59,824 nucleotides of DNA from Candidatus Peregrinibacteria bacterium (GTDB lineage Bacteria; Patescibacteriota; Gracilibacteria; Peribacterales; Peribacteraceae), in contig JACPMB010000008.1 in assembly GCA_016186175.1 (NCBI GenBank), positions 1 to 59,824 on the forward strand, in the 5' to 3' direction. Shown in pieces: positions 7,267 through 50,042 of the stretch. Numbering within the stretch: position 1 is the stretch's first letter; each line of letters opens with the position of its first letter. Under the pieces are notes generated by a model. That model was not told the DNA's origin. It made no database searches and saw only the letters and a list, made by a program, of their open reading frames with translations. The position numbers and the translations under genes were made by a program.

Positions 7267-7731
7267 TCAAATGGATTTTTCTTGCTGCGTCAGGTAAATA
7301 GAGCCATTTTTCAGCAATATTTTGCTTGTGAAAGACGCAAGCAGCTCCCGTTTCTCCGTCATCGTCCCGTTTGTGAGAAGATATTCCACGTACTTTCTCT
7401 GATTAATCTTCTGTGCCTTCTGCTGGTCGGTGACGCCTAGAACGTCCAACGCGAAGCGGGAGAACCGCTTGAATTCATCGTCGATTTTCCGCTTCACTGC
7501 CGAGGCATTCAGGGAGAGGCCGTCGAGAATGTCGATAAGTTGTTTGATCAACTCTTCCTCTCGGATACCCGGTGCATGACACGCAATATTCCTTGAGTGG
7601 GTGCATCGATAGTAGACGTAGCTCTTCATGGAACCGTTCTTCATCTGCCTACGCTTCTCATCGGCAGTCACTCCTGATTTACAGTGTCCGCACGTCATGA
7701 GTCGCGTGAAGGCGAATTCCGTCACACCCAT
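7267..7731 (-). pseudogene. large serine recombinase, C-terminal part after a frameshift
   Basis: This 154-codon frame continues the recombinase encoded just upstream on the same strand. It starts with the conserved EFAFTRLMTCGHCKSG region, carries the zinc-ribbon cysteines (CGHC, then a later YYRC), and ends in a coiled-coil-like tail typical of large serine recombinases. It overlaps the N-terminal frame by 10 bp and is shifted by one base. Ordinary proteins of this family run without interruption across this point, so I read the pair as one gene broken by a one-base change. A sequencing error, or two separately translated pieces coupled at the overlap, are alternatives. Confidence 0.7.
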
Positions 7732-8606
7732 TCCCGCTCCTGCCCGGTGGAGAGGAAGTGCTGCACATCATCGAAGAGTTGCTGACTGATGAGCGGCTCG
7801 TGCGTTCCCTGATACCAATTGCCTCCACCTTTCGGATACTCGAACATGCCGTAGTAGAAGGGGTTGTTGAGAATCCTGTACACACCCGAGAGTGTTATCC
7901 GCTTGTCGCCTCGCGTCTTGAAATTCGCTTCCGTGTTCAGCCATTTGAGGAGCGTTCTGCCGCTTGCGCCTCGTTCCGCGACGAAACGGAAGAGCTGCTT
8001 GATCGTCGGAGCGCGGATTGGATCGATGACGATCTTGCCTTTGTTTCGGTCGAGACTCCGCTCATTCAAGTAGCCCAGAGGTGCAACACCCGGACGGACG
8101 TCCAGCTCGCATTTGTTCTTCAGTCCACGTTTCACATTGATCCCTCGGTTATCATTCTCCAATTTTGCCTGTGAGCAGAGAATCATGAGGAGGAATTTCT
8201 CGTTCGGAGAGTTTGTGAATTTCTGTCCGGTCGTTCGGATCTCCTTCAAGACTCCTTGGTCCATCAAATCAACCAATGATCCCAGATCACCAGCGTTTCT
8301 GCTCAGCCGATCCGGTGCCCACGTCACGATTCCCGTGAACACTCCACTTCGGATATCTGTCAGGAGCTGGCTGAAGACCGGACGTTGCCCGGAATCCTTT
8401 GCTGAATGGCTCTCACGCCGGATCTCGACGATGTCCAATCCGTCTCTTTTTGCGACCGCCATCATCTCTTTGACTTGGGAGTCGATGCTGAGCGCTTGCC
8501 GTTCATCGTCCTCGGAGGATTTTCTCGCGTAAAGGCAGTAGCGAATCGGCTCAGTCTCGCTGCTTGTTTTCTGTTGTTGTTCTTCCAATATTGCCGAAGG
8601 GTTCAT
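7722..8606 (-). pseudogene. large serine recombinase, N-terminal part (resolvase plus recombinase domains)
   Basis: Catalytic half of a site-specific serine recombinase. The resolvase domain starts with YCLYARKSSEDDERQ, S30 being the likely nucleophile, followed by VTWAPDRLSRNAGD with the active-site arginine. A recombinase domain follows (GYLNER, then SGVYRILNNPFYYG). The frame stops after QEREWV, exactly where the zinc-ribbon part resumes in another frame. I chose the ATG at 8606; an upstream TTG at 8714 would add 36 non-homologous residues and overlap the helicase remnant. Such enzymes integrate or excise mobile elements and invert DNA. Its presence supports the mobile nature of the neighbouring island, although the break suggests it is now inactive. 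Confidence 0.75.
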
Positions 8607-8710
8607 AGGGAAAGGGGTAAGAATGGACACGTCAAGCAATGCCGCTACACGCTCAAGAAGGCCAGGCAAAATCAACACAAGCAGCTCAATTTTCTCTGCA
8701 GTTAAACGCC

Positions 8711-9063
8711 TCAAAACATCGCCAATTGCCCTTCGGGGATAGATCGTTTTGCTTTACCCATTCTTTCCTGTCGGATTTCAATCTGAAGTGCTCGATAGGT
8801 ACGAAGGCGCTGGAAATGCATCCCTTTAAGCATGGGTACATCGAAATCCACGTAATCATAGACATGCGCATGTGACTTTCCCGGAACTGTTCTTTGTACT
8901 CGCCCGATGTACTGTACGAGCTTCCCCTTCCAAGAGAAAGGAGGAAGCTCTTGCCGATACCGGCTGCGCCGGTGAGGAAGACGTTCCCTTGGCGCTCAAG
9001 CACGTCGAGTCCTTTTGTTTGGCAACTCGTGAGCGCAGCCTGATTTGGAGAAGTTTTGTCCAT
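8711..9063 (-). pseudogene. helicase remnant: PIF1/RecD-like N-terminus joined to an SF2 helicase C-terminus
   Basis: The 5' part reads in one frame as the start of a PIF1/RecD-type helicase, with a Walker A motif in NVFLTGAAGIGKSFLL. Near 8925 homology jumps to another frame. That frame encodes the C-terminal end of a superfamily 2 helicase: motif VI QYIGRVQR, then HVYDYVDFDVPML and a basic tail ending in QLAMF and TGA at 8711. The two halves come from different helicase types and the frames do not match. This is therefore a deletion scar fusing two genes, not a working protein. A continuous 125-codon frame runs through it, but its second half is meaningless. Confidence 0.7.
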
Positions 9064-9117: not shown

Positions 9118-9303
9118 ATGACATTCGGTGCAGGCACCAGACTCCGGCAAATCTCTCCCATCCTCAAGAATGAGGATGCACGTCATCAGATGATTCTGCG
9201 GTGTGTCGAAAATAACAGCGTTATCGAGGGGTTACCTGCTTTCAGCAAAACAACGAAACAAGATTGCTTGCAGGAACTTAGGGAGATCGCCTCGAAGCAC
9301 TGA
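9118..9303 (+). CDS. 61-residue protein with Fic-antitoxin-like motif
   Basis: A small basic protein that I do not find in a named family by eye. Residues 33-38 (NSVIEG) closely resemble the inhibitory helix motif of Fic antitoxins and class II Fic proteins, [S/T]xxxE[G/N], with E37 and G38 present but Asn in place of Ser/Thr. VbhA-like antitoxins show a similar S-V-x-x-E-G-L pattern followed by a short helix, as here. I chose the ATG at 9118 because an extended -10 lies directly upstream; longer in-frame starts read antisense through the helicase remnant. It is convergent with the Fic gene and overlaps its 3' end by 26 bp. This is unlike normal Fic operons, where the antitoxin precedes the toxin. 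The antitoxin role is inference. Confidence 0.55.
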   Translation: MTFGAGTRLRQISPILKNEDARHQMILRCVENNSVIEGLPAFSKTTKQDCLQELREIASKH

Positions 9304-9910
9304 GCGCCGAAGCGATGATTGCGATCATAGGTTCGTAGTTCTGTAGCATCGCAGCTTTTGCGGCCTCGATATAGCGATCTCGACCAGCATCTGATGGATC
9401 GTAGACGAGAGCGAGACGGCCTGTCTGCACGGCCAGCAAATCCGTGACGAGCTTGATTGTTCTGGCATTGCCTTCGCGGAAGGGATGAATGGCGAGAAAC
9501 TCCCCCTGAATATGACCGACTGCTTTGCAGAAGAGATCGTCCGGCGTAAGTGATTTTGCGGGGAACTTTGAAAGTACACCCTGTTCAAATGCGATCATTG
9601 CCTCGCTAAGGTAATCCGGAGGCGGCCATGCGGTTCCTTCTTTACTGATCGATACGGTTCTCCATCGACCGGCCCACTCATACAGGTCGCTGAAAATGCG
9701 GCCATGAACATGTTTGATCAAGTCCGATGAAATGGGAGTGTCTGATCTCATCTCGTCGAGAAGCAATTCGTATGCTCTGGCCAGAGCCTTTTCTTCTTCG
9801 ATAAAGAGCGCGTGCAAATCAGCGATGCCCTTCTTGTTTTTCAGGATTGTCTGCTCCAAATCCATGTACTCGTTCTCACTGCGGCCGACCGAATATCGAG
9901 ATACTGTCAT
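9278..9910 (-). CDS. Fic/DOC-family protein (probable AMP transferase)
   Basis: A 210-residue Fic-domain protein. The core motif is HPFREGNARTIK with catalytic H142; the usual second Gly of GNGR is Ala. The preceding YEWAGRWRTVSISKEG is the typical flap/target-positioning region. Fic proteins transfer AMP, or other nucleotide parts, to target hydroxyls. No inhibitory [S/T]xxxE[G/N] motif is visible at either end, so a separate inhibitor would be expected, as in class I Fic systems. The ATG at 9910 is preceded by TATAGT with a 6-nt gap and no Shine-Dalgarno, suggesting a leaderless transcript. It may be a toxin, a host-interaction factor or a defence gene in this accessory region. Confidence 0.85.
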   Translation of the reverse strand: MTVSRYSVGRSENEYMDLEQTILKNKKGIADLHALFIEEEKALARAYELLLDEMRSDTPISSDLIKHVHGRIFSDLYEWAGRWRTVSISKEGTAWPPPDYLSEAMIAFEQGVLSKFPAKSLTPDDLFCKAVGHIQGEFLAIHPFREGNARTIKLVTDLLAVQTGRLALVYDPSDAGRDRYIEAAKAAMLQNYEPMIAIIASALSASRRSP

Positions 9911-10406: not shown

Positions 10407-11429
10407 TCACTTCGGAGATGCCTGCGCGCCTTCTTTGAGCATCTCACGCGCCTGATCAGCCATGTTCTTGGCGATTGTCTGCACGCGCGTTGCAAGGTCT
10501 TGCAGTTCGGGACTGATCTGCTTGGCCTTCTCCGCAAGCGCCCAGGCTTCTTTGGCAAGCGAGAGCGCGTCATCAAACTGGCCATCCGATCCAGCCATGT
10601 ACGCGCGCACCAGGGCACGGAACGATTCGCTGATCTTCACGGCGGATTGCACTATCGGGACAGAAGGCTTGCTGGCGTGAGCCCCGCGCGCGGCGAGCAG
10701 GGCGCGGGCAGACGCCATTTCGGCCTGTGCGACGTTTTTTACCTCGAGCATCTTAAGAATGTTGACGAGTTCGCTTTCTTCTTCAGATAAAAGAGCCTGG
10801 GTTCGCTTGCCTGCCTTGTACATCGCCAAACGATAAACGAGTTCAGCAGCGTTCGCCCGTGTCAATTCCTTATCCGGACTTAATTTCCCGTCTTGCTGTA
10901 CTTGTATCAGAGCATTAGCGATTCCAAGGCGCATCCATGTGTAAAACCATGTGTCCGGATCGCTTGCATCGGTTGCCAGTGGCAATCGAATCTCACTGAA
11001 GGCGCCGGGATCAAATCCCTGGGATGAGAGCAGCATCTTTAGGAACTCCGCTTGTTTCACGGTTCTGTCGCCGTTGAAGGAAGGCGCCGAACCCACAATG
11101 CCGGTGATGCGGGCAGCTTCGGCGTATACCCTGTACCATGCGTCATCTGGGATATCGCCGAACGTGCGCTCGCTGACTGCTTTCACCTGCGCGTCGGACA
11201 TCTTTGTAAGCACGAGGACTTTGGCCGCCGCGGCACGGGTGAACGGACTCCCGGGCTTGAAGGTTCCATCTGGATTTCCCGTCATGATGCCTTGGGACCT
11301 GACAAATTCTATGGCGGCGGATTCCGGAATCTTTTCCGAAACATCCGAAAAAGAAGATGCCGCGAAGCACGGCCCCGAGAGCGCCGCGATGGCAAATGGA
11401 ATGATGATGTAACGAAGCAGAAGGCGCAT
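10407..11429 (-). CDS. secreted S-layer-homology (SLH) domain protein
   Basis: A 340-residue exported protein. Residues 1-~24 form a signal peptide (MRLLLRYIIIPFAIAALSG, cleavage after CFA). About three SLH-type repeats follow, visible as FSDVSE...IEFVRSQGIMTGNPDGTFKPGSPFTRAAAAKV, FGDIPDDAWYRVYAEAA, and WFYTWMRLGIANAL...LTRANAAELVYRL (each quoted in part). The C-terminal third is helical and charged, probably coiled coil. SLH domains bind secondary cell-wall polymers, so this protein likely sits in the envelope. I chose the ATG at 11429 because it begins the signal peptide directly; an in-frame start 12 codons upstream adds nothing. It is divergent from the fibre-like locus, and I infer a role in surface anchoring there. 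Confidence 0.85.
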   Translation of the reverse strand: MRLLLRYIIIPFAIAALSGPCFAASSFSDVSEKIPESAAIEFVRSQGIMTGNPDGTFKPGSPFTRAAAAKVLVLTKMSDAQVKAVSERTFGDIPDDAWYRVYAEAARITGIVGSAPSFNGDRTVKQAEFLKMLLSSQGFDPGAFSEIRLPLATDASDPDTWFYTWMRLGIANALIQVQQDGKLSPDKELTRANAAELVYRLAMYKAGKRTQALLSEEESELVNILKMLEVKNVAQAEMASARALLAARGAHASKPSVPIVQSAVKISESFRALVRAYMAGSDGQFDDALSLAKEAWALAEKAKQISPELQDLATRVQTIAKNMADQAREMLKEGAQASPK

Positions 11430-11540
11430 ACAGAAGCGTCCCAATGGTAGAAAATTCCCATGCAATAGGGCAAAGGATTATGATTGCGCATTGCTGGAAT
11501 CCAAGTCCCGCGTGATATAGACATAAATATAAAAATATGC

Positions 11541-11546
11541 TATAAT
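11541..11546 (+). promoter_or_regulatory. -10 element of the proline-rich/fibre operon
   Basis: TATAAT preceded by TGC (extended -10) lies 25 nt before the TTG start at 11572. A short AT-rich tract precedes it. Confidence 0.55.
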
Positions 11547-11571
11547 AACATGAAAACTCATCAAAACCACA

Positions 11572-12522
11572 TTGAAGAATCAGTCAATTTTCTTCCGGTT
11601 TCTAATGTTACTCGGCGGAGTACAGATAATTTTGTTTACCGCCGGACGAGCGAACGCGATGGAAAGTCCGTCGTACCGCCTGATTCGAGATGACCGGCAT
11701 GCACGAAACACGCCGATGATCGGCCAGAATTTTCGCATAACATTCGAACTCCCTGAGTTGCCTGCGCCGCAGGAGGAGGAACCTCTTGTTTTTGGATATG
11801 CGCGCCCGTACAGCTTTTTCCCTCCAGCGACGCCTGGTTCCGACGTTTCGGCCCCGGTGCTTGTTTTGCCGCCTTTGCCAGTAATTGCTCCATCCGAAGT
11901 GTTGCCTGTCGGCAAGCCGCGTGCTGCGATAAATCCGTATGCGCCAATCGGTTCCAGAAATGCTCCGGTAATGATCAATGGCGTTCCGCAAAGACGGCTG
12001 ATCCACCAGCAAGCGCCGCAGACGACTGTTACACCGATCCCAGCGAAAGCAACGCTGTTTCCGTCGGCCAAACCGGATATGTATCCTGCGCCGCGGTCCT
12101 TCCCAAGCCCGGCGCTGACGATCCCGCGCGGTCAATTTTCCAAGGCGTCCCCGTCCAAACCGGCGACCGCCCGCGGGTCGTATCTGCAAAAGCATCCTGC
12201 ATCCATCCCCGCGCCGGCAATTACGCCCAGCATCCGGCAAGTTCCAACCAAAGAATCCGATGCGCCGCTACTGATGAAAAAGGTGGGCGATCGCATGCGC
12301 AAGCGGCAGCAGGCTGGAGGGCTGCAATTCGCTGCATCGCTGTTCATGGATGGGAACCATGATCTTGACCCCGTTCGCACGGGCCTTCTGGCCATTTCTG
12401 TGTTCCTCTCGATTTGCCTGCTGCACGCCCGGTGGCGCCTGCGGCTTTTATCCGCGCCGCGCCCGCGACGGCGTTTTGCCAATACTGCATTTCGCCGCTT
12501 GTGCCGATCCAGATCATCATGA
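11572..12522 (+). CDS. secreted proline-rich protein with C-terminal membrane segment
   Basis: I do not recognise a named family. The 316 residues begin with a signal peptide (KNQSIFFRFLMLLGGVQIIL, cleavage near GRANA). A long, probably unstructured region rich in Pro, Ala, Ser and Arg follows. A hydrophobic segment near residue 275 (TGLLAISVFLSICLL) is followed by a very basic tail. This topology suggests an envelope-spanning linker with a cytoplasmic basic anchor. The start is a TTG at 11572; an internal ATG at 11605 would leave a shorter signal peptide. An ATG at 11550 in another frame sits closer to the promoter but gives no sensible protein. Its TGA overlaps the next ATG (ATGA), so the two are translationally coupled. 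Confidence 0.65.
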   Translation: MKNQSIFFRFLMLLGGVQIILFTAGRANAMESPSYRLIRDDRHARNTPMIGQNFRITFELPELPAPQEEEPLVFGYARPYSFFPPATPGSDVSAPVLVLPPLPVIAPSEVLPVGKPRAAINPYAPIGSRNAPVMINGVPQRRLIHQQAPQTTVTPIPAKATLFPSAKPDMYPAPRSFPSPALTIPRGQFSKASPSKPATARGSYLQKHPASIPAPAITPSIRQVPTKESDAPLLMKKVGDRMRKRQQAGGLQFAASLFMDGNHDLDPVRTGLLAISVFLSICLLHARWRLRLLSAPRPRRRFANTAFRRLCRSRSS

Positions 12523-13805
12523 ATAACCGGTTCGCGATCATCGGCTGGACGACGATCTGCCTGCTTGCAGGAAGCCTTCCTATCCTGCGCGGCTCCGTTC
12601 TTGCCGCTTCGTCCGTGCCGCCCATCTATCTTTATTCCGGGTATCTGATGACTGCATCCGGAAATCCACTTAGCGGTCCGTACCGCATGCGATTCAGTTA
12701 TTGGAACAATCCAGATGCGCTTGCAGGCGATCTTCTGACATCCGGCGAAATCAATCCCGCCGCCGCGGGCTACCTTGGATGGCAGGAAGCCGACACGGTG
12801 ATTCCGGGCAACAAGGGAGCATTTACGGTGTATCTGGGAAGCCAGAACCCGCTGCCGTCTTTCGGAATGTTTTCATCGGGTGATCTAAGCACCCTACACC
12901 TTCAAGTCGAGGTGAGGCCGGAAAACGCGCCAGATACATCCTATGAACTAATGGATCCAGACGTACAAAACCAGGCATTGGATCGTTCCCCGGTGCCTGC
13001 CGCGCCATTTGCGACAAATGCGCTCTTGCTCGACCGCCGCGGCATAGGAACTGGGAGCGGGTCCGTGCCGTTGCTCCTTAGCGGAGGCATGCTTCCGGTC
13101 TCCGCCATTCCAGGGAAGACGAACGCTGACAGTTTTACGATTGATGCGGATGCATCTTCCACGCAGGACGTTTCGCTAAAGTTCGGCGAGACACTCGGGA
13201 AAACTCTGGCTTACGATGTCCTCGGCAGCCGCTTCGTCTTTAACGCAGATCTTCACATTCAGGGGAATCTCACAGTCACCGGACTGGTGAACGGAGTTAA
13301 CTTGTCCGCTATCGCCAGCGGGACAGGGTCTGTTCTCGCGGTTCTCCACCCGGAATTTGCTGCGGCGTACCAGGGAGACGGAGAGAACAATGTCGGCCAA
13401 CTCTCCGTACGGCACGATGGCGGCCCGCGGACCAACTACTACGCATGGACTAGCAGTCGCTCCAGTCTTCAGGATTACGACGTGATCGTTCGATTGACGC
13501 TGCCGCAACGCTTCGAACGATGGAGCAGTACGCCGATTGTTATGAATCATCGTACGCAGTCTGCTTCGGCAGGAGATGGCAAGCTCGATCTATTGTTGTT
13601 CGATACGGCCGGCAACGCGGTCGGCGTCAACGGCGGCAGCGGACTCGCGTCGGCGTCCTGGGCAGCCGCAGGAATCACCTTCTCGGGCTCGCCAACGTGG
13701 ACGCCGGGACAATCGTTCCTCCTTAAGGTGAAGTTTTCATCAAAGAACGGAATTGAAGCTGCGCTCGGAGACATAGAATTTCGCTATGTGGAGCGCGTGC
13801 ACTGA
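12519..13805 (+). CDS. secreted fibre-like surface protein A
   Basis: A 428-residue exported protein. The signal peptide spans residues 1-~31 (WTTICLLAGSLPILRG, cleavage near VLAA). A beta-rich N-terminal domain follows. Around residues 207-255 lies a module shared with the next two secreted proteins (KFGETLGKTLAYD, then RFVFNADLHIQGNLTVTG). The C-terminal beta domain has LHPEF near residue 278 and YYAWTSS near 310, matching protein B. The pattern resembles phage tail-fibre and trimeric adhesin stalks, but no named family is certain. It begins at an ATGA overlap with the proline-rich protein. I infer a surface appendage or adhesin. Confidence 0.7.
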   Translation: MNNRFAIIGWTTICLLAGSLPILRGSVLAASSVPPIYLYSGYLMTASGNPLSGPYRMRFSYWNNPDALAGDLLTSGEINPAAAGYLGWQEADTVIPGNKGAFTVYLGSQNPLPSFGMFSSGDLSTLHLQVEVRPENAPDTSYELMDPDVQNQALDRSPVPAAPFATNALLLDRRGIGTGSGSVPLLLSGGMLPVSAIPGKTNADSFTIDADASSTQDVSLKFGETLGKTLAYDVLGSRFVFNADLHIQGNLTVTGLVNGVNLSAIASGTGSVLAVLHPEFAAAYQGDGENNVGQLSVRHDGGPRTNYYAWTSSRSSLQDYDVIVRLTLPQRFERWSSTPIVMNHRTQSASAGDGKLDLLLFDTAGNAVGVNGGSGLASASWAAAGITFSGSPTWTPGQSFLLKVKFSSKNGIEAALGDIEFRYVERVH

Positions 13806-13901
13806 GACGCGCAAGCATAACACAGTTATGCAATTTGTTCTTTATGACATATTTTGTGATGTAGTCCATATTATATTGAAGAATATAAAAGAAAAGTTTG
13901 C

Positions 13902-13907
13902 TATACT
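13902..13907 (+). promoter_or_regulatory. extended -10 promoter of fibre protein B
   Basis: TGC-TATACT lies 21 nt before the ATG at 13929, in an AT-rich intergenic region of 123 bp. No ribosome-binding site is visible. Confidence 0.5.
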
Positions 13908-13928
13908 GCTGCGATACCCCAAACACAT

Positions 13929-15098
13929 ATGATCATCTTCTCTAATATTTGTATCCGCTGCAGACGTTTTCTCGGGTTTGCGCCGGGAATCGTAATGCTA
14001 TTCCTCATGGCGTCGAATACGGCGCATGCCGCGTCATCCTGGAACCCCACGCTGCTCGTGAATACGGAATCCTTCGAGATGCTTGACGAAGGAGACAGCA
14101 CGACAAATATAGAGATCCGGTTCGGACAAACGCTCAACGAGAAGCTGATCTACGACAGGACAAACAACCGGTTCGTCTTCACTCGCGGACTCCTGGTCGG
14201 AGGCAATCTTACCGCCACCGGTTCGCTAAGCGTAAAGAAAAGCATCTCGGGCGCCACGCTTCGAATTGACGGCAATGCTGATATCTGGGGCGCGCTCTCG
14301 GCGACGGGGTCGCTCAAGACGAAGTCCGATCTAACGATCAACAGCGATGCGGACGCCAGCGATGCCACTGCCACATTCGGCAACGTGTCCGGGAACCAGA
14401 CGTTGAAGTTCCTAAACGGCGCGCAGGAATTTGAACTCAGTAAAGGCACACGAGTCAACGGCGCCATTTCCGGTTCCGGCACTTTGAACATACAGAACAA
14501 CATCAATACCAGAGCAGACATCAAATTGAACGCGGATGGCGGCGCCGCGGACGCCACGCTGACGTTCGGCAACGCCACGTCGGACCAGACTTTGAAGTTC
14601 AGCAATGCCAATCAGAGATTCGAATTCAGCAAGGACGTGAAAGTCACAGGCGGCGTGCGTGCGAGCGGCAACCTCTCCGGTTCCACTCTCACAGTTGACG
14701 GCAACGTAAACATACGCGGTCAAAATCTCGCGTTCCCGAACTCCGCCGGCGCCGCCAATCAGTTCCTTAAGACGGACGGCGCCGGAGGACTGTCGTGGTC
14801 CGCTCCAGTTGTTGGCAACAGCAGCGGCAAAATACTATCCCTGCACCCCGAATACCCGAACGCGATCTACACGCAATCTGGTTCCGCAGCGGTCGGAACG
14901 CTCACGTACGGATACGATTCGACCAACGCGGAGAACTTCTACCGGTGGACAACCAGCAAGGCCGCCATTCAGGACTACTGGACAGCCGTCCGCGTCCAAG
15001 TGCCGAAGAACTTCGCCTCCTGGGATCCGTTCAAGCCGCTGCAGCTGCGTCTGCGCACGACATCCACGTCGTCTGCGAGCAACCACATCAATTCCTGA
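13929..15098 (+). CDS. secreted fibre-like surface protein B, possibly C-terminally truncated
   Basis: A 389-residue exported protein with a signal peptide (GIVMLFLMASNTAHA). The shared module starts near residue 45 (RFGQTLNEKLIYDR). It is followed by repeated ~55-residue stalk units of the form TFGN-x-QTLKF-N-x-FE(L/F)S-K-x-VxG, seen near residues 145 and 220. The C-terminal domain (LHPEYPNAIY, then FYRWTTSKAAIQDYW) matches protein A, but it stops about 85 residues earlier than A, after SSASNHINS. The following ~60 bp before the terminator carry no matching sequence in any frame, so the end may be naturally short or lost by deletion. A likely partner or variant of the neighbouring fibres. 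Confidence 0.7.
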   Translation: MIIFSNICIRCRRFLGFAPGIVMLFLMASNTAHAASSWNPTLLVNTESFEMLDEGDSTTNIEIRFGQTLNEKLIYDRTNNRFVFTRGLLVGGNLTATGSLSVKKSISGATLRIDGNADIWGALSATGSLKTKSDLTINSDADASDATATFGNVSGNQTLKFLNGAQEFELSKGTRVNGAISGSGTLNIQNNINTRADIKLNADGGAADATLTFGNATSDQTLKFSNANQRFEFSKDVKVTGGVRASGNLSGSTLTVDGNVNIRGQNLAFPNSAGAANQFLKTDGAGGLSWSAPVVGNSSGKILSLHPEYPNAIYTQSGSAAVGTLTYGYDSTNAENFYRWTTSKAAIQDYWTAVRVQVPKNFASWDPFKPLQLRLRTTSTSSASNHINS

Positions 15099-15155
15099 AT
15101 GTCAACTGGTCAACAACGACTCCGTAATCGTCAGGATCTCGCGCCTGTAACGACG

Positions 15156-15184
15156 AACAGCGGCTCTACAGAGCCGCTGTTTTT
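15156..15184 (+). terminator. rho-independent terminator
   Basis: A perfect 11-bp stem (AACAGCGGCTC against GAGCCGCTGTT) with a TACA loop, followed by TTTT. It ends the fibre-protein-B transcript before the propeller gene. Confidence 0.85.
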
Positions 15185-15270
15185 GTACAGGGCAATAGAC
15201 ATTGTAAATCTGGATACTACTTTTATCGGCTGCTCAATGTCCCGAACGGGCCGTAGTGCCAGTTTTCTGT

Positions 15271-15276
15271 TATACT
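15271..15276 (+). promoter_or_regulatory. -10 promoter of the propeller protein
   Basis: TATACT lies 11 nt before the ATG at 15288. An AAGG about 5 nt before that ATG could be a weak ribosome-binding site. It follows the terminator at 15156, so this gene has its own promoter. Confidence 0.5.
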
Positions 15277-15287
15277 GCAAGGATTTT

Positions 15288-18200
15288 ATGACACATTTTC
15301 CATGTCATGATCGAGGGATTGGCGGCGCACTTAGAGTCGTGCTCTCGCTGATGCTCGCAGTCTGCATGATGTTGCCAGTGAGCGCCACAGGCAGCTCGTG
15401 GAATCCCACATTTCTGGTGAGTACGGAAGCATTTCAAACGATTGATGATATTGATACCGCCGCAAATGTCCAATTGCGGTTCGGACAGACTTTGAATGAA
15501 AAACTTCTCTACGATCGCGCCAATGTTCGATTCAAGTTCACCCGTGGGCTGTTCATCAGCGGCGGTCTTACCGTCACCGGCGCGACGATTCTCAACGTCG
15601 GCAATTCCACGGCCGCGCCGGATGCGGGGATCGCTCTGGAAGTCATCGGTACCGCATCGGGAGACGTTCTCCACGCGCAGCGACGACTTGAATCGTCCGG
15701 CTCTCTCGCGGTCTTCGGCTACGGCAAGTTCGACGGCGGCACGCTATTCATCGATTCGCTTAATAACAAAGTCGGCGTGAACAACTTGGTTCCGAAGACC
15801 GACCTCGAAGTCATCGGCACGATGTCGGGTGGGAACCTGACCGTGACCGGTCTCAAGAGCTGCGATACCATTGATACGAACGGCAACGGCGTTCTCGCTT
15901 GCGGAACGGATGCGGGAGGGGGCGCAGGGTTGACGCAAACCGATGCGGATGCGCGGTACGTGAATATCGCGGGTGACACGATGACCGGCGGCCTGATGAT
16001 CAGGAATGGCGGAGGTTTCAACGCCTCAGGGGCGCTCCTCACGAACAGCGATGCGACGATCAACAGCGATCGTGGCGCCGCCGATGCTGTGCTGACCTTC
16101 GGCAATGCCACGCTCAATCAGACGATCAAGTTCCTGAATACCTCGCAACGCTTCCAGTTCAGCAGCAATGTGAGTGTTCTCGGCAACCTATCGGGTGCGA
16201 CGCTCAACGTCAACAGCCTCCAGAACTGCGACACCATCGACACGGATGCGGCCGGACGCCTCGCGTGCGGAACGGATGCGGGAGGGGGCGTGGGCATGAC
16301 CATAGCAGACGGCGACGCGCGGTACGTTCGCACCGCCGGCGGCACGATGACTGGCTCGCTCATCGTGAACGGCACAACGGCAAATCTCGTGAAAACGACC
16401 ACCGGCACGGCGAATTCCACAGACTTCTCCCTTGCCGGATCCACACTCACGAACGTCACCTCGACGAATGATCTCGTCACGATCAACGACGGCACGGTGC
16501 CAGCATCCGGTGCGGGAACGATGTCCACCTCAACTGTCACCACGAGCGTCGCAGTCGGCGCGGGCGGACACACGATCCTCCGTGAGGATGGCAAATACAT
16601 CATCATCCACGGCGGGGCCGCGCTGACAGGGTCGGTCTGGGACGGTTCTACGACAGGCGCAATGAGCGCGTCACCGACCGCGCCGAGCACGTCCGCAATC
16701 GGCGCAGGCGCGATTTCGCTCAAGCGTCCCGACGGGCGGTATCTCGTGATCAATGCGGGAGGGAGCCTTGGGACGACGTCGCTCTTCGATCCGCGCGGCA
16801 TCACGGCAACGGCCGCTGGTCCGGCGGTCTGTGGAGCAGGCGCGACGACGACGGGCACGAACGCGTTCCTTCGTAACGACGGGAAATATGTCATCCTCTG
16901 CGGAGGACTCACAGCGTGGGGAGTTTACGACCCTACGGCGAATACCTACACGGCTGGCACGGCCGTCGGTGTGGCGTTCAACGCCGGCGCGCACGCCATT
17001 ATGCGCGACAACGGAACCTTCCTCGTGTTTGCAGGGGGCAACGTCACGACGCACTGGCTCTACAACCCCTTCACGAACACGATGACCTTGAACCCGATCA
17101 CAACGAGCCCGCCTACGATTACGACGGGTGCGTTCTCCCTGCGTCGCAAGGATGGCAAATTCCTTGTTATTGGCGGGGCCATCAATACGTCATCCATCTA
17201 CGATCCGACTGAGGGGGCGACGAACGGCGGCGCCGGCACGATGACAGCGCAATCCGGCGTCGGATTCGGTCCCACGGTCGCGCTCGCGGACGGTGCGCAG
17301 GCCGTCTGGCGTCAGGACGGGAAAATGCTCCTGATCATCGGCGCCGGTTCTACTGTCACCAACATCGTCGATCCGTCCGTTACAACGAGTTCACAGTTCA
17401 TGGCCGGTCCGACTCTTGCCGGCGCCATAGGCGCCGGATTTCACATGTTCCTGCGTCCCAACGGCCAGTACCAACTGATCCGCGGCGGGGCGACCACGAC
17501 AACCGATACGTATGACATGGGATTCATCATCGGCGGCAATACATCTGGCACGCAGCTAGCGAGTTACGAAACGGAATGTATGACGGCGACGTCGCTCAAC
17601 GCGTCTTCGCGTCTGTTCTGGAATATCAACCAGGAAGGCTATGTCACGTTCCAGGCGAAGACAGGCAACGGCGCATGCAGCGGCAATTACAAAGATATTC
17701 TCAACAGCGGCGACCTGATCGGTGCGGCGAACGGCGATAACCGCGTCCAAGTGAAAGTCTTCTTCAAGCGGCAGTTCCCGAACTTCGCCGACCAGGAGTG
17801 GAAGCTCCGGCGCGGACTCGGGCAGACGCTCTACCGCCGCGTCAATCCCGATCCGTCGCTCTACGATTTCACGGTGGATAACTCGACGATGGTGCATCGG
17901 ACGCAGTTCGAATTCGGCAACAATGCCAATCCTTCCGGTCCGATTGCGATCAACATCGTCAACGACAAGGACAAACAGATTGCTATTTCCCTCGCCGCGG
18001 GCGTCGGCTACGGGACAACGATCAACGCGGCGAACCCGCAGCTCTACAATGGAGCGTGGGGCACACACACGGTCCTCACGACTTCAGCGACAGCCGGGAC
18101 AGTCGTGATGCGCAGGCCGGATGGGAAGTTCATTGTAATTTCCGGCAACACCGCGACCGCGAACGCCCAAGTATACGATCCTGTCGCACAAACCTTCACA

Positions 18201-19973
18201 GCGCTCGGCACGACGCCCGCCGCGGGAACCGGTCTCGGTGCTCTTGCGTTCAAGCGTCCGGATGGGAAATTCCTGATCGTCCTCGGGAACGCGACGACCA
18301 CGACCAGCATCTTCGATCCAATCGCGAACACATTCACCGCCGGGCCGGCACTAACCGCCGCAGCCGGGCGTGGCGCGCTGGTCATCCCCTTGCCGTCCGG
18401 ACGCGTGCTGATTCTGCACGGGAACTTCACGAACACATCGTCAATATACGATCCGTTCCAGAACACCATGGTTGCTGGCCCAACCCCATCCGCGGTCATA
18501 GGCGGCGGCGCGATGGCGATTCCCCGTCCGAACGGGACATACTTCGTCGTCTTGGGGATCGCGACGGAAGCCTGCACCGCTCTCAACACGACGACGAACA
18601 ACTTCGATCCCTACACGATGCAGTTCGTCGCGACGGGCTCTCCTGCGATCACGACAGGCGTCGGACCGGGGGCGTTCGCCTTCCAGCGCGGCGACGGTCA
18701 GTGGGTGATCGTCCACGGCGGCGGCACTGTCACGACGTGCGCGGGCGTCACCCGAACGCAGATCTATAATCCCTTCACGAACAAATCCGTCGTCGGCCCC
18801 GTGCTTTCGGCGGCAGCGCAGCACGGAGCGCACGCGATCCCGCGTCCAGACGGCACATGGCTTGTGGTGCATGGCGGCGCTCTGGCCACCACTTCCATTT
18901 ACATGGAGAAAGCGGGAGCATTCACGGCGGATGGCGCCAGTAACATCGGCGTCTTTGTCGCCGGTCCGGCTCTGGTGACGGCGGCGAGCGCCGGGGCGAT
19001 TTCGTTCCAGCGCGACGACGGAAAGTTCGTCACACTCATTGGCAATGCGACAACCACCACCCATCAATATGACGCCGGCTGGGTAGACCGGGGTATGTAT
19101 AAGTCGGAGCAGTTGAATTTGACCGATCTCGACAGTGCGTCAACGCTCAGTTGGAGTGGATCACCGGATCTCACCGGCATCTCCGCCGAAGTGCGCACCG
19201 CGACGTCACAACTTGGTCTGCAAACAGTATCGTCTCGTGACGTCCCGTACCCCGGAGCTCGCATCAATCCGGGCGCCAGCGAAACGTGGATCAGAGTGCA
19301 CTTCAACTTCAAGCGCACGTTCCCGAGCTACTCCGGCATCTTCACCGATGTTTGGTACAACGGCGGATCGTCGAACCTCTGCACACAACGGACAGTGCCG
19401 ACTCCTACGCTCACGGAATTCAGCATCAATAAAGATAAAGATCTCGTCAGCCTCAAATCCGATTCCCGCAGCGTTTTTCGCGTCAATTCCAACGGTGATA
19501 TCTACACGGGACCGACCAGTTCCATCCTCACCGGTGGAGCCGACGTGGCTGAGCGGTACAGTTCGGACCAGGAACTGAACCCCGGGGAACTCGTCGCCAT
19601 CGACCGGGCGAATGACCATGGCGTCATCCGCTCGGCGACCCCCTATCAAGATGATGTACTCGGCGTCGTCTCCGGCAATCCGGGCGTCGTTACCGGTGCC
19701 GATACGGCGAATTCGCACCCGATCGCTCTCATTGGCCGCGTGCCTGCGAACGTCACGACGGAGAACGGCGCCATCCGCGCGGGTGATCGCTTGACCGCCT
19801 CCGGTATTCCAGGGTACGCAATGAAGGCGACTAAGGCCGCGCGCGTCGTCGGAATGGCGCTTCAAACTCTCGATCCTGAATCGCTCAGGCCGTGTACTGC
19901 GAATCCGCGATTCCAGTGCGGGGTTGTGATGATGTTCGTAGACCTCAGTGATTGGCCTGGTGAAGCTCAATAA
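15288..19973 (+). CDS. giant secreted protein with two seven-bladed Kelch-like propellers and a self-processing-like C-terminus
   Basis: About 1,561 residues. A signal peptide (VVLSLMLAVCMMLPVSATG) is followed by the shared fibre module (RFGQTLNEKLLYDR, ~45-95) and stalk repeats to ~400. Residues ~424-744 hold seven repeats of the form G-A-x-x-(L/I)-R-x-DG-(K/R)-(Y/F)-(L/I)-V-I-x-GG-x-T-x-(S)-(I/V)-Y-(D/N)-P. A beta domain comes next, then seven more blades at ~920-1265. These resemble Kelch/galactose-oxidase propellers. A second beta domain precedes the C-terminal region from ~1415 (GGADVAERYSSDQELNPGEL, then DDVLGVVSGNPGVVTG). That region resembles the intramolecular-chaperone/peptidase G2 domains of phage appendages. 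I chose the ATG at 15288 because the signal peptide follows; the longer frame to 15099 crosses the terminator. Probably a surface adhesin or sugar-binding protein. Confidence 0.8.
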   Translation: MTHFPCHDRGIGGALRVVLSLMLAVCMMLPVSATGSSWNPTFLVSTEAFQTIDDIDTAANVQLRFGQTLNEKLLYDRANVRFKFTRGLFISGGLTVTGATILNVGNSTAAPDAGIALEVIGTASGDVLHAQRRLESSGSLAVFGYGKFDGGTLFIDSLNNKVGVNNLVPKTDLEVIGTMSGGNLTVTGLKSCDTIDTNGNGVLACGTDAGGGAGLTQTDADARYVNIAGDTMTGGLMIRNGGGFNASGALLTNSDATINSDRGAADAVLTFGNATLNQTIKFLNTSQRFQFSSNVSVLGNLSGATLNVNSLQNCDTIDTDAAGRLACGTDAGGGVGMTIADGDARYVRTAGGTMTGSLIVNGTTANLVKTTTGTANSTDFSLAGSTLTNVTSTNDLVTINDGTVPASGAGTMSTSTVTTSVAVGAGGHTILREDGKYIIIHGGAALTGSVWDGSTTGAMSASPTAPSTSAIGAGAISLKRPDGRYLVINAGGSLGTTSLFDPRGITATAAGPAVCGAGATTTGTNAFLRNDGKYVILCGGLTAWGVYDPTANTYTAGTAVGVAFNAGAHAIMRDNGTFLVFAGGNVTTHWLYNPFTNTMTLNPITTSPPTITTGAFSLRRKDGKFLVIGGAINTSSIYDPTEGATNGGAGTMTAQSGVGFGPTVALADGAQAVWRQDGKMLLIIGAGSTVTNIVDPSVTTSSQFMAGPTLAGAIGAGFHMFLRPNGQYQLIRGGATTTTDTYDMGFIIGGNTSGTQLASYETECMTATSLNASSRLFWNINQEGYVTFQAKTGNGACSGNYKDILNSGDLIGAANGDNRVQVKVFFKRQFPNFADQEWKLRRGLGQTLYRRVNPDPSLYDFTVDNSTMVHRTQFEFGNNANPSGPIAINIVNDKDKQIAISLAAGVGYGTTINAANPQLYNGAWGTHTVLTTSATAGTVVMRRPDGKFIVISGNTATANAQVYDPVAQTFTALGTTPAAGTGLGALAFKRPDGKFLIVLGNATTTTSIFDPIANTFTAGPALTAAAGRGALVIPLPSGRVLILHGNFTNTSSIYDPFQNTMVAGPTPSAVIGGGAMAIPRPNGTYFVVLGIATEACTALNTTTNNFDPYTMQFVATGSPAITTGVGPGAFAFQRGDGQWVIVHGGGTVTTCAGVTRTQIYNPFTNKSVVGPVLSAAAQHGAHAIPRPDGTWLVVHGGALATTSIYMEKAGAFTADGASNIGVFVAGPALVTAASAGAISFQRDDGKFVTLIGNATTTTHQYDAGWVDRGMYKSEQLNLTDLDSASTLSWSGSPDLTGISAEVRTATSQLGLQTVSSRDVPYPGARINPGASETWIRVHFNFKRTFPSYSGIFTDVWYNGGSSNLCTQRTVPTPTLTEFSINKDKDLVSLKSDSRSVFRVNSNGDIYTGPTSSILTGGADVAERYSSDQELNPGELVAIDRANDHGVIRSATPYQDDVLGVVSGNPGVVTGADTANSHPIALIGRVPANVTTENGAIRAGDRLTASGIPGYAMKATKAARVVGMALQTLDPESLRPCTANPRFQCGVVMMFVDLSDWPGEAQ

Positions 19974-20018: not shown

Positions 20019-22361
20019 CTATGTAATCCGTTTCCTCAATTCCTCGCTGGTCGGCAGCTTCAAAGGATCAATCCCGCGCTTTTTCCACTTCTCCCGCAGG
20101 GCTTCCATGTAGCCTTTTTCGGAGGACAGACGTTCGATGAACGGGAGGACACTCTTGTGGAAGCGACTCTTCTTCGCGTTGTCGCTCACGGCGTACACCG
20201 CGGTCACGAAGGCATCCTCGCCCCCGCGGATTTCCGTCCGGACTTCATCGAGCGCCGCCTGAGCGATGCTTTCGCTGTCCAGTCCGGCCATGAACTTCAA
20301 CTCCTCGTCGGTTCCGGATGGGAAGTAGTGGTTCACGCCGAGCCGCCGGAGGGAGCAGGGGAGCTGGAAGTCGGCGACGGCGTCGGCCACCTGGGATGCG
20401 AGCCCGCCCTCGGAGCAGTGATCTTCCGCGACTATCAGGTGTCCGGTTTCCAGAGCAGCCTGGACGATGGCGGCTGCATCAATGGGGCGGACGCACGAGA
20501 CGTTCAGGACGCGGACGCGGATAGGTCGCAGGTTGCCGGTTGCAGGTTGCAGGAGCATGTCTGCGGCGGCGACCGCGTCATGGACTGGAATCCCAGTCGC
20601 GATGATCGTCGCGTCGTCGCTCATGTCACCCGCGCCGCGGACGATATCAATGTTGCCGTCGAAGACGTAATCCTTTCCGTAGATTACCTCGCCTTTCGGG
20701 GTTTTGAGCTGCTCGTGGGAACTTCTCGGGAAGAAAACGTACACGCTCTGACTACCGTCCGCGATGATCTCCATTCCCCGCTCAGCCGCCGCCGCCGCCT
20801 GATTGCTGTCCGCCGGCATCCAAATCTGCGTGTGATCGAATGGGATGTTCAAATAATTGCGTTCCTGGTGCGTTTCTCCGTCTTCGCCGACGGAGAGCCC
20901 GGCGTGAGTGCAGTCGTGGAGCACGCCGCAGCGGGTGTGGCCGCAGTTGATGTCAATCAGTCGCGCATTGGCGCGCGCCTCGTTCGTTCCGAACGCCGCG
21001 AAGGTGTAGGTCACGGGGAGGAGCCCCGCCTGCCGCATCCCCGCCGCCATCATGTACATGTTCGCCTCCGCAACGCCGACGTTGATAATTCGTCGAGCAA
21101 TCTGTTCGTCAGAGAATTCCGCTTGCCCTGAGACCGGCGCTTTGCGCCACGTAGAAGGGTCGAAGCCGCCCGATCCGGCGAGATCGGCGTGCAGAACGAC
21201 GATGCGCGGGTCGGCCTTCATCAGCGTCTTGAGGTGGACCGCGCCGAAGTCCTGGCGCGCGGCGGATTTCCCGGCGGTGATGGCGCGCCCGTAGTCCTTG
21301 AGGTTCTTGATCGAGAAGGGGAGGGGAGGTGGTAGTGGGTGGGGAGTAAGGGGTAGTTTCTTTCTGAATGTTTCGTATTTTTTTGTGAGTTCATCCAGCG
21401 GCGGGAGTTCCTTCAACGCTGCGGCGGCGATTTCATCTTTGAGCGGGCTGCCGTGATAGTTCGCGGAGCCGGTGTTCGAGCCCTCTTCCATGATTTTCAC
21501 GCCGTGGCCCATGGTCGTGTAGTAACAAACGAATATCGGTTTGCCTTTCCCCAGGAATCCGTCGGCCAGATCCAAAGCCGCGACGACCTGCCCGGGGTCA
21601 TTGCCGTTCTGAACCTCGATCACGTTCCACCCGGCAGCCGCAACGATCGTCGCCATGTCCGCGGCGACGATCCTGCTTGGCATGTCGCCGAGCTGTATGT
21701 CGTTGAAATCACCGTGAACCATCAGGTTATCGGCTTTCAGGCGGGACGCGAGACGCACGGCCTCCATCACCTGTCCTTCCTGGCAGTCGCCGTCGCCCAG
21801 GAGAACGTCAACGATCCCCGGCAGACGGAGGTACGTGAGGCCGAAGGCCACGCCGAGGGCGTTGCTCAATCCCTTGCCGAGCGGCCCGGCGCCGAACGGG
21901 ATGTCGCCGATGCCCGCCTCCACGTGTCCGGGGAGCCCGCCGGGCACGCGGAAGGCGCCGATGATCGCCTGCGGGGACGCAAGGCGCGGGTCGTTGCCCT
22001 CGCGGTGCATGATCCACTGCATTCCGTATGCGAGCAGGCTCAAGTGCCCCGCGCTCATGCGAAAGGCGGGATCAACTTCGGAATTTCTCCTCTTATGAAC
22101 GAAGTACGTGAATGTAAACGCGGAGAGCGGGCCGCCGGGATGTCCGGATTTATGTTTGGTCGGCGCCTGGATGCACAGGTGCGCCATAATCTGCCGTGCG
22201 AGCGCGTAAGCCTCAAGTTCGTCCTCTGGCAGTTTCTTCGCGTCCTTCGGGCCGATCCAATGGCGTTCGCCGGGCGACGAAGACGCCGCGATGCGTTGCA
22301 GGGACATGGGAACCTCATCAGGATCCTTGCCGATAAGATTCTTTAGATCAGGACGCGTCAT
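20019..22361 (-). CDS. tkt: transketolase
   Basis: Thiamine-diphosphate enzyme that moves two-carbon units between sugar phosphates in the pentose phosphate pathway. At 780 residues it is ~100 longer than usual. Visible features are the N-terminal substrate-binding HKSGHPGGPLSAF, the TPP motif GDGDCQEGQ...ND, a pyrimidine-domain region (NVGVAEANMYMMAAGM) and the C-terminal domain. A low-complexity proline stretch at ~335-350 (LTPHPLPPPLPF) sits in the linker between the PP and Pyr domains and looks like inserted repeat DNA. Its start overlaps the stop of the upstream C39-like gene by 4 bp (ATGA), so the two are coupled. FSA-type transaldolase and Gnd nearby make up a pentose phosphate cluster. 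Confidence 0.93.
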   Translation of the reverse strand: MTRPDLKNLIGKDPDEVPMSLQRIAASSSPGERHWIGPKDAKKLPEDELEAYALARQIMAHLCIQAPTKHKSGHPGGPLSAFTFTYFVHKRRNSEVDPAFRMSAGHLSLLAYGMQWIMHREGNDPRLASPQAIIGAFRVPGGLPGHVEAGIGDIPFGAGPLGKGLSNALGVAFGLTYLRLPGIVDVLLGDGDCQEGQVMEAVRLASRLKADNLMVHGDFNDIQLGDMPSRIVAADMATIVAAAGWNVIEVQNGNDPGQVVAALDLADGFLGKGKPIFVCYYTTMGHGVKIMEEGSNTGSANYHGSPLKDEIAAAALKELPPLDELTKKYETFRKKLPLTPHPLPPPLPFSIKNLKDYGRAITAGKSAARQDFGAVHLKTLMKADPRIVVLHADLAGSGGFDPSTWRKAPVSGQAEFSDEQIARRIINVGVAEANMYMMAAGMRQAGLLPVTYTFAAFGTNEARANARLIDINCGHTRCGVLHDCTHAGLSVGEDGETHQERNYLNIPFDHTQIWMPADSNQAAAAAERGMEIIADGSQSVYVFFPRSSHEQLKTPKGEVIYGKDYVFDGNIDIVRGAGDMSDDATIIATGIPVHDAVAAADMLLQPATGNLRPIRVRVLNVSCVRPIDAAAIVQAALETGHLIVAEDHCSEGGLASQVADAVADFQLPCSLRRLGVNHYFPSGTDEELKFMAGLDSESIAQAALDEVRTEIRGGEDAFVTAVYAVSDNAKKSRFHKSVLPFIERLSSEKGYMEALREKWKKRGIDPLKLPTSEELRKRIT

Positions 22362-48773: not shown

Positions 48774-50042
48774 TCATTTGTCATCATCGCCGCTCACCTG
48801 ATATTTCTCCCTGATTATGATGAGAATCTTCGCGATCTCCGCGCGCGCGATCGGGTCAGTGGGATGAAACAAGCCTGTTGGCGTTCCATTTTCATCGGAG
48901 CTGCCCGACACGATACCCTCCGCTGCCGCTGTTTCGATCTCGCTCGCATACGGGGTCTTGCGCAGGACATCCGTAAATCTGTCTCCCCTTGCCCATTTCA
49001 CCGGAATATCCAGCACTTGCAGCAGCGTCGCGACGACCTCGCCGCGAGTCGCGGGGCGGTTCGGGTCAACTGTGCCTCCAATAAACACAGACCATCCGCG
49101 CTCTTCCGCAGACGCGAAATATCCGGCGAACCACTTCCCTAATGCGAGAGGATTAAGCGGGATCGCAGTCGCCTCATTATCGTTGATCTTCATGGACGTA
49201 TGAGCGATTTTCGCAAGTTGCGCGATTGTCACAGGATCGCCGGGCCCGAATCTGCCGCTAAAGCCGCCGTCCGCGTTGACGTAGCCGGACATGACGCCGC
49301 GGCTGACGATCGTTGTGATGTACGGGGCGAACCACGATTCCGGATGAACGTCGCTAAAGACCATGGTTTTTCCTCCTAATTCGACGGTGACGGCTTTTGG
49401 CTTGGTCGCCTGCTCAACAGGGCGGAAATTCTTGCAGATTATTTTGATCATGAAGTTGATGCGCCCGTTATGATCGAGCACTCCTGATTGCTGCGGCGGA
49501 CGCGGACAGCCGTCCGGTTTGAAAGTGACGCTGTAGTTGCCGATTGGCATGGGGGAAAATTCCACCGGCGTAACGCCTTGCCTGAGCATCCCGTTCGGTC
49601 CGACCATTTCGAACGGCACTCCAATCGGATCACTCCCCACTCCGATCTTGCCGAAAATAGTCAACGAATAAGTTATGACCAGTTTAAGCGTCATTGTGTC
49701 TTTGATTTCAAAACTTATCTGAGGGGTATCGGATGAATATGTCACGTCGTCGCCAAGGAATATGTCAATGTGGGCGGTCGTGCCGTCCGGCGGGACGGCA
49801 AAAAATGAATACTGGCCTGGAGCGAGATCGGGCACGGAAAGCGACGCGTCCGTTCTGTGGAACGACTCGTGATTGGGACGCAGCAGCGTCCATTTCCCGA
49901 CGGCGTCAACTTCGCTTTTTTGCTCCACGATCAGCGTGCCGGACGGAACGGCAATCGTCTGCTCGTCCTGGGCGTGCATGGAGAACGGCGACAACAGAAA
50001 CAGCAGCAATGCGGCTGCGGCAAACCGGGTGAAGTCGCTCAT
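48774..50042 (-). CDS. secreted protein with Ig-like N-terminus and SLH domains
   Basis: A 422-residue exported protein. The signal peptide spans ~1-24 (FAAAALLLFLLSPFSMHA). Residues ~30-205 look like two beta-sandwich domains (for example PVEFSPMPIGNYSVTFKPDG). From ~228 to the end lie about three SLH repeats (FSDVHPESWFAPYITTIVSR, WFAGYFASAEERGW, FTDVLRKTPYASEIETAAAE). It should bind the cell wall through the SLH domains. TAGAAT lies 9 nt before the ATG. It is downstream of purL on the same strand, 12 nt apart. Confidence 0.8.
   Translation of the reverse strand: MSDFTRFAAAALLLFLLSPFSMHAQDEQTIAVPSGTLIVEQKSEVDAVGKWTLLRPNHESFHRTDASLSVPDLAPGQYSFFAVPPDGTTAHIDIFLGDDVTYSSDTPQISFEIKDTMTLKLVITYSLTIFGKIGVGSDPIGVPFEMVGPNGMLRQGVTPVEFSPMPIGNYSVTFKPDGCPRPPQQSGVLDHNGRINFMIKIICKNFRPVEQATKPKAVTVELGGKTMVFSDVHPESWFAPYITTIVSRGVMSGYVNADGGFSGRFGPGDPVTIAQLAKIAHTSMKINDNEATAIPLNPLALGKWFAGYFASAEERGWSVFIGGTVDPNRPATRGEVVATLLQVLDIPVKWARGDRFTDVLRKTPYASEIETAAAEGIVSGSSDENGTPTGLFHPTDPIARAEIAKILIIIREKYQVSGDDDK

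Follow-up and report, generated by a model that had tools for sequence, protein, structure and literature searches.

A conserved surface-fibre operon of Candidatus Peribacteria and a predicted helix-turn-helix regulator with site arrays in its relatives

Several described systems come close to the subject of this report, an operon for surface fibres with a divergent SLH neighbour, which lies at positions 10407 to 19973 of contig JACPMB010000008.1 from a Candidatus Peregrinibacteria bacterium (assembly GCA_016186175.1); the whole 59,824-nucleotide stretch analysed is called the window. Among phage proteins, phi29 gp12, Dpo31 and a PA5oct virion protein are homologous to the C-terminal domain of the third fibre protein (P3), whose DxAE motif aligns with the first residues of the solved gp12 fragment, and the fibre locus also carries tail-fibre linker motifs. 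Sap-type SLH proteins have three SLH repeats, as does the divergent neighbour (P4), and the window genome contains a pyruvyltransferase-family gene. Membrane-bound transcription regulators are widespread (PMC10269533), and in ToxR and CadC, as in fusion proteins that we find in relatives of the window, a DNA-binding domain, a transmembrane (TM) segment and an exterior part share one chain (PMC10269533). Like the system of the relatives, MyRF, a mammalian membrane transcription factor with a phage tailspike chaperone, brings together a DNA-binding domain, a segment in the membrane and beta structure of the tailspike type (PMC8326128). Within the window's own class, the excerpted text of one report credits Peribacteria with large exported, possibly attachment proteins, S-layer proteins, pili and sortase, and the attachment candidates it gives for Candidatus Peribacter riflensis are, like the fibre proteins here, large and exported (PMC4736985).

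The locus departs from each of these systems. Unlike phage tailspikes, its proteins have their own signal peptides and sit in a cellular genome with a membrane anchor and an S-layer-type neighbour, and the propellers of P3 lie inside the chain. P4 differs from the Sap type in being small, in its helical tail, in its position divergent from the fibre operon, and in being kept even after fibre loss. Compared with ToxR and CadC, the relatives have a transposase-type paired helix-turn-helix (HTH), an appendage as the exterior part, a signal-peptidase-like site after the TM segment and long arrays of sites in the same orientation; the window genome has no regulator of this kind. The MyRF chaperone is cytoplasmic and frees the DNA-binding part, whereas in the relatives the fibre lies on the exterior and a separate protein usually carries the chaperone-like domain. 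The Candidatus Peribacter riflensis candidates are cysteine-rich or large proteins generally, and the excerpted text describes no such operon, module or regulator (PMC4736985). We found no earlier description of the operon or of an HTH-fibre fusion in the open-licence papers searched.

The locus is a real, conserved, lineage-specific surface-fibre operon, and the lineage of the window is Candidatus Peribacteria, tiny bacteria about which little is known. The most surprising part is a predicted regulator, present in relatives together with arrays of sites. For the system as a whole, fibres and relatives' regulator taken together, our confidence is good though well short of firm. The evidence for conservation comes from a scan of named genomes with a profile built on the P1 alignment, which returned 41 loci, nearly all from Candidatus Peribacteria or Peregrinibacteria; a few were from Gracilibacteria and two from bins with odd labels; the sequence P0002 alone, used as query, returned nothing in the genome-contig scan. 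The order of divergent SLH gene, anchor and P1 is kept in 35 of these 41 named Peribacteria/Gracilibacteria loci, and P2 is usually next after P1. In 380 genomes drawn from the phylum the shared module of the fibre proteins occurs in 18, of which 15 belong to the window's class, and it is rare outside that class. Where the module occurs, an ortholog of P4 usually does too, both within the same family (both in 20 genomes, module only in 0, P4 only in 8, neither in 8; p=4e-4) and in the other families of the class (both 8, module only 1, P4 only 0, neither 14; p=2e-5). An earlier, sequence-only reading had taken these genes for one system, and the kept order and the co-occurrence of module and SLH ortholog speak for a system rather than scattered single genes.

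The features referred to below are as follows, with coordinates in the window.
10407..11465, minus strand: P4, divergent neighbour, exported; three SLH repeats at the N-terminus, helical towards the C-terminus
11518..11546, plus strand: promoter-like site of the anchor-fibre operon, TAGACA-17-TATAAT, 11/12 consensus matches, the region's best
11572..12522, plus strand: P5, proline-rich membrane anchor, with signal peptide, C-terminal TM segment at residues 268-286 (hydropathy) and basic tail
12519..13805, plus strand: P1, exported fibre protein (N-terminal domain, one module, predicted jelly-roll C-terminal domain)
12603..13034, plus strand: P1 N-terminal domain (NTD), 41 further copies in named loci
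13122..13295, plus strand: module copy of P1, 94.7 bits
13335..13787, plus strand: P1 C-terminal domain, predicted beta-sandwich like CBM61/CBM6/CBM35 and tailspike tips (predicted model, Foldseek)
13815..13831, plus strand: terminator-like hairpin 3' of P1 (automatic scan)
13929..15098, plus strand: P2, exported fibre protein with three modules and a truncated C-terminal domain
14061..14234, plus strand: first module copy of P2, 98.7 bits
14322..14492, plus strand: second module copy of P2, 84.6 bits
14511..14681, plus strand: third module copy of P2, 90.2 bits
15095..15127, plus strand: out-of-frame remnant of the P2 C-terminus, LNVNWSTTTP-stop (sequence against ortholog ends)
15158..15179, plus strand: terminator-like hairpin, then T5, between P2 and P3 (read by eye; the automatic scan did not list it)
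15288..19973, plus strand: P3, exported, 1561 residues, with two modules, phage-fibre linkers, two kelch-like propellers and a tailspike-chaperone-like C-terminus
15420..15590, plus strand: first module copy of P3, 96.3 bits
16044..16211, plus strand: second module copy of P3, 83 bits
16536..17522, plus strand: P3 propeller 1, seven repeats with ~48-residue spacing, repeat positions 432-723
18060..19082, plus strand: P3 propeller 2, with seven repeats, of which a regular expression found five and reading by eye two more
19491..19868, plus strand: P3 C-terminal domain, homolog of phage tailspike C-terminal chaperones, with DxAE motif (profile matches)
20019..22361, minus strand: transketolase (named by eye), neighbour bounding the cassette

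The gene set and its coupling agree in part with what had been proposed from the letters alone. Three consecutive exported proteins do have a module in common, as six copies were found (one in P1, three in P2 and two in P3) and pairwise BLASTP agrees (P1-P2 7e-16, P2-P3 1e-38, P1-P3 1e-9). The module is also new, in that no family in Pfam, PHROGs or NCBIfam describes it, and its length is nearer ~57 residues than the ~50 first given. A whole-assembly search places it at the fibre locus only within the window genome. Matches of P0002 in viral contigs were not used as module homology; they rest mostly on a common fibre motif at about residues 258-300. In another genome (G033, L125:3753-10466) a frame of 2238 residues carries eleven module copies and a tailspike-chaperone-like C-terminus. 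P5 is joined to P1 by an ATGA overlap at 12519-12522, as had been noted, and the two are fused in several genera. P5 is equivalent to the P5N proteins of relatives by position and by an N-terminal ESxSYxL; the P5N profile leaves the P5 of the window unmatched, as it is too diverged. The third open reading frame (ORF) is an exported protein as claimed, but the start given for it, at 15099, is spurious, and P3 begins near 15288, past the hairpin at 15158-15179. Terminator-like sites follow both P1 and P2, and the three fibre genes are not one coupled unit.

The C-terminal domain said to be common to two of the proteins is confirmed by BLASTP for P1 and P2, with the P2 copy cut short; the end of P3 is different and resembles phage tailspikes. 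P2 of the window ends at 15098, short of the last strands of this domain, and its orthologs, where no contig end cuts them, extend ~60-80 residues further to end in ...FNWSTTTP or similar. Because the orthologs are longer and the other frame at 15095-15127 reads LNVNWSTTTP-stop, P2 is, on the sequence, damaged, either by loss of an internal piece with a frameshift or by an assembly error.

The NTD of P1 shows 37-56% identity in an alignment of 16 sequences, and no viral relatives of it were found. Profile searches of the PDB with the P1 NTD and the P1 tip returned nothing significant. An AlphaFold model of P1 gives a pLDDT of 71-93 per ten-residue block over most of the C-terminal domain. Foldseek with this model returned 8iq9 (1e-4) and two carbohydrate-binding module (CBM) structures, CBM61 2xon (9e-5) and CBM6 2cdp (TMt 0.59), with TM-scores that are low over the whole query and a model that is moderate. 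The best fold matches of the P1 tip are carbohydrate-binding modules and K2-2 tailspike tips, and those in the viral library are phage tail proteins. The modelled C-terminal domain shared by P1 and P2 is thus a predicted jelly roll resembling carbohydrate-binding modules and tailspike tips, and the tip probably binds glycans.

The divergent gene upstream is an SLH protein, as had been read from the sequence: P4, on the minus strand, scores 51.8 bits against Pfam SLH (cut-off 20.8), and its residues 50-209 align with the SLH domain of the Sap S-layer protein (3pyw, E 7e-6), a three-repeat wall-binding domain. The genome contains one pyruvyltransferase-family gene (PF04230, E 2e-24), as would suit a CsaB-type enzyme for pyruvylated wall polymer, but the family also occurs in genomes without SLH anchoring. 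The window holds a second SLH protein (48774-50042) with two good SLH matches. That the locus encodes an envelope-anchored appendage is well supported by the signal peptides, the membrane anchor, the Sap-like SLH repeats, the pyruvyltransferase-family gene and the homology to phage fibres. In loci of another family (L060, L062) the P4-P1 pair is kept with other genes beside it, which favours a functional link between the two. The fibres appear to come and go at a fixed site, since in fibre-less genomes (L109, L111-L113) only a short distance separates P4 from the transketolase-like gene found at the edge of the window cassette, and since in one locus of the same genus (L106:6910-7665) P1 and P2 are lost while a remnant of the P1 C-terminal domain remains beside P4. 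Peribacteria-type loci also occur in bins labelled Kiritimatiellales (L084) and Woesebacteria (L096), which are probably mislabelled or contaminated, or else reflect transfer.

What the fibres do is a separate question. Adhesion is likely and host contact is plausible. The fibres might instead serve biofilm formation, self-aggregation or the capture of nutrient polysaccharide, a possibility that we take seriously, at clearly less than even confidence. The resemblance of the tip to polysaccharide-binding CBMs suits such a role, as does the fact that half of the relatives do without the module; the excerpted report on Peribacteria argues the other way, in that they are without many biosyntheses, are inferred symbionts and have large exported attachment candidates (PMC4736985).

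Many relatives carry an HTH protein 5' of the anchor, either as a separate gene or as an in-frame fusion to anchor and fibre. These proteins match HTH_32 and HTH_28 above the cut-offs, and each of the 22 strong hits among 59 genomes (E below 1e-14) either is part of a fusion with a large fibre-type gene or stands directly 5' of one. A DNA-binding domain and a TM segment share one chain in L046, L049, L054, L057, L059, L099 and others. At the main locus the fused forms read HTH, TM segment, exterior part, TM segment, basic loop, TM segment and fibre, with one segment falling below the hydropathy threshold in some. In genome G015 an HTH-TM-module protein has an open frame of >4100 residues (L114:9721-19899). 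An AxA-type signal-peptidase-like site is found at 31 of 31 junctions of the fused chains, and also in most of the unfused proteins. From their sequences the fusions look like polyproteins with internal signal peptides. Because the junctions keep signal-peptidase-like sites, the HTH part would stay behind on a membrane stub, which favours export coupling over a covalent fibre sensor.

The DNA between P4 and the HTH gene is distinctive in these relatives. The gap, measured between domains, is 236-1158 bp against mostly 231-363 bp in loci without an HTH gene, and is thus mostly longer where the HTH gene is present. It holds repeats of a 26-bp motif, naAAAGaTCAgAnAgATnnGnnacan, which form arrays in L063, L065, L066, L068, L070, L073, L074, L077, L079, L082 and L092. 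The motif search used a bounded number of sites, a Markov background, shuffles and leave-one-out; a first, unbounded search drifted into poly-A, and an AT-rich pattern that reached a higher total likelihood with half the information per site was not used. Scores for the 26-bp motif were 604-630, at ~15 bits, while the shuffles reached no more than 340 and ~10 bits. Under leave-one-out there are 53 sites in 7.5 kb of these intergenic stretches (7.06/kb) and 46 in ~171 kb elsewhere in the same loci (0.27/kb), a 26-fold enrichment, and all but three of the 53 point toward the HTH gene. HTH genes outside the training set, in L057 (two genes), L099, L115 and L120, also have sites just upstream. Intergenic regions without an HTH gene carry the motif at background level only, and single-HTH variants have no array. 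Rfam returned only tRNAs for seven array loci, so no known RNA explains the arrays, and a genome-wide search for other targets found mainly the operon itself and near-background singletons, the best other match falling among unrelated ORFs.

The geometry of the arrays is regular. About half of the gaps between sites are 60-80 bp and several are twice that, for a spacing of ~70 bp, and in most loci a distance of 18-19 or 27-30 bp separates the start of the proximal site from the -35 hexamer that follows it. These two proximal positions are one helical turn apart, as expected of an activator. The promoter hexamers of the window, TAGACA and TATAAT, are also found in L065 and L066. The 26-bp sites are candidate cognate sites of the HTH protein.

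RodZ also has an HTH-TM-exterior topology, and the HTH part of the relatives could have no role in transcription and serve instead to place the fibre anchor, as a structural element or a cytoplasmic scaffold of the RodZ kind. Many of the HTH proteins do adjoin a membrane protein without being part of the same chain, as a scaffold would allow. We consider this unlikely all the same, as directional arrays occur in HTH-bearing loci only, keep a fixed phase relative to the promoter and turn up again in front of HTH genes that had been held out.

P3 bears on the relation to phages. Residues 991-1061, in propeller 2, match a kelch protein (6ryw, E 4e-4), and the linkers carry tail-fibre-like motifs. 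A profile of the C-terminal domain (A7) matches the phi29 gp12 fragment 3gqh (E 6e-4) and Dpo31 D4 (28nb, E 8e-4), and by tblastn the domain matches the PA5oct virion protein (1e-9), a structural protein detected by mass spectrometry. All of 7 sequences compared keep both the D and the E of the DxAE motif. Pfam returned no tailspike-chaperone family match for the P3 C-terminus up to E 1; the domain is homologous to tailspike chaperones in sequence and motif and is not filed as a family member. Its profile also matches an Aureispira grappling-hook protein weakly (E 0.03), which we treat as a lead only.

These tail-fibre motifs and the tailspike chaperone-like domain are what one would expect if the locus were a domesticated piece of phage, with tail-fibre-like genes derived from a prophage or a phage-derived particle and no cell-surface appendage. 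Each protein has its own signal peptide, however, and the anchor is a membrane protein; the neighbouring ORFs read include no head, tail-tube or packaging gene, and many genera share the gene order, with an S-layer-type gene alongside, so that a phage origin of this kind seems to us very unlikely. Least credible of all is that an IS-type transposon left behind the HTH protein and, as its end repeats, the sites, for although the domain family is of transposase type and the fold is close to TnsB, no catalytic domain is present in the proteins scanned, the sites are multiple, same-oriented and at the promoter and not terminal inverted repeats, and several lineages have in-frame fusions of the HTH to fibre anchors.

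Several observations weigh against a surface-fibre system with its own membrane-linked regulator, and they bear on different parts of it. A search of the window genome (a 904-kb assembly, 82% complete) found neither an HTH protein nor an array, and what is said of regulation therefore applies to relatives. Membrane tethering is not universal either, since the separate HTH proteins of the main locus are soluble. The predicted HTH fold is closest to PAX paired domains and TnsB without being significant by E-value, and the paired-domain match stands at E 0.05. The P1 model is moderate (mean pLDDT 66.6) and CBM-like folds are common, and the P2 of the window is broken. Eight fibre-less genomes still have an SLH ortholog, which indicates that the SLH protein is not dedicated to the fibres. 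With the module in only 29 of 59 relatives, and with fibre genes that vary, the fibre system is dispensable. As to the missing regulator, L063 is the nearest P1 relative of the window and has both HTH protein and array; the window lineage probably lost the regulator, or a sister lineage gained it, and a copy may lie elsewhere in the incomplete genome.

We propose the following arrangement for the surface-fibre system. P5 would be the membrane anchor and P1 and P2 the exported fibre subunits, with the beta-rich module repeats as shaft and the CBM-like jelly-roll end probably binding glycans. P3 would be a long accessory fibre with two propeller heads, whose tailspike-type C-terminal domain probably trimerises and may cut itself off. 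P4 probably joins the envelope layer through which the fibres project. In many relatives, a protein with two predicted helix-turn-helix domains, soluble 5' of the anchor or TM-fused to anchor and fibre, probably activates its own operon from the ~26-bp site arrays just upstream of the -35 box; after export its DNA-binding part would remain on a membrane stub, so that transcription would depend on fibre export or on the state of the anchor. The window operon presumably runs from its plain TAGACA-TATAAT promoter, which is intact, as regulator and sites are absent there. Of all this, gene content and order, co-occurrence, homology and the site arrays are observed, whereas the trimer, glycan binding, host contact, activation and export coupling are inferred. 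The fullest form of this proposal is that in many Peribacteria a transposase-derived, paired-domain-like factor, joined ahead of the signal peptides of the fibres and left on a membrane stub once signal peptidase has cut, reads fibre export or surface contact as transcription through the ~70-bp-spaced arrays, and that the window lineage secondarily lost it; this we put forward tentatively, at somewhat less than even confidence.

The surroundings of the cassette add further observations. Serine-recombinase-like and Fic-like genes (named by eye) flank the locus at 7722-8714 and 9278-9910; in relatives a Mur-ligase-like gene follows P4 at the place of these genes, and the cassette edge may be mobile in the window. 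Further on, at 56904-58769, the window encodes a further exported protein, made of repeats, which may be a sortase substrate, having an LPQTG motif and, at its C-terminus, a transmembrane segment.

Apart from type IV pili, little is settled about the means by which uncultured, supposedly cell-attached bacteria of the candidate phyla radiation (CPR) attach to other cells and sense them. The locus contributes an operon with clear limits, a repeat module that is new and tips that are candidates for glycan binding, and its relatives contribute a predicted DNA motif together with the likely regulator; laboratory strains would suffice to test all of these, with no need to culture Peribacteria. Should the regulator act as we propose, signalling would gain a design whose exported structure brings along a transcription factor of its own, and the fullest form of the proposal, if true, would make it an export- or contact-coupled one-component switch of a kind for which we found no description.

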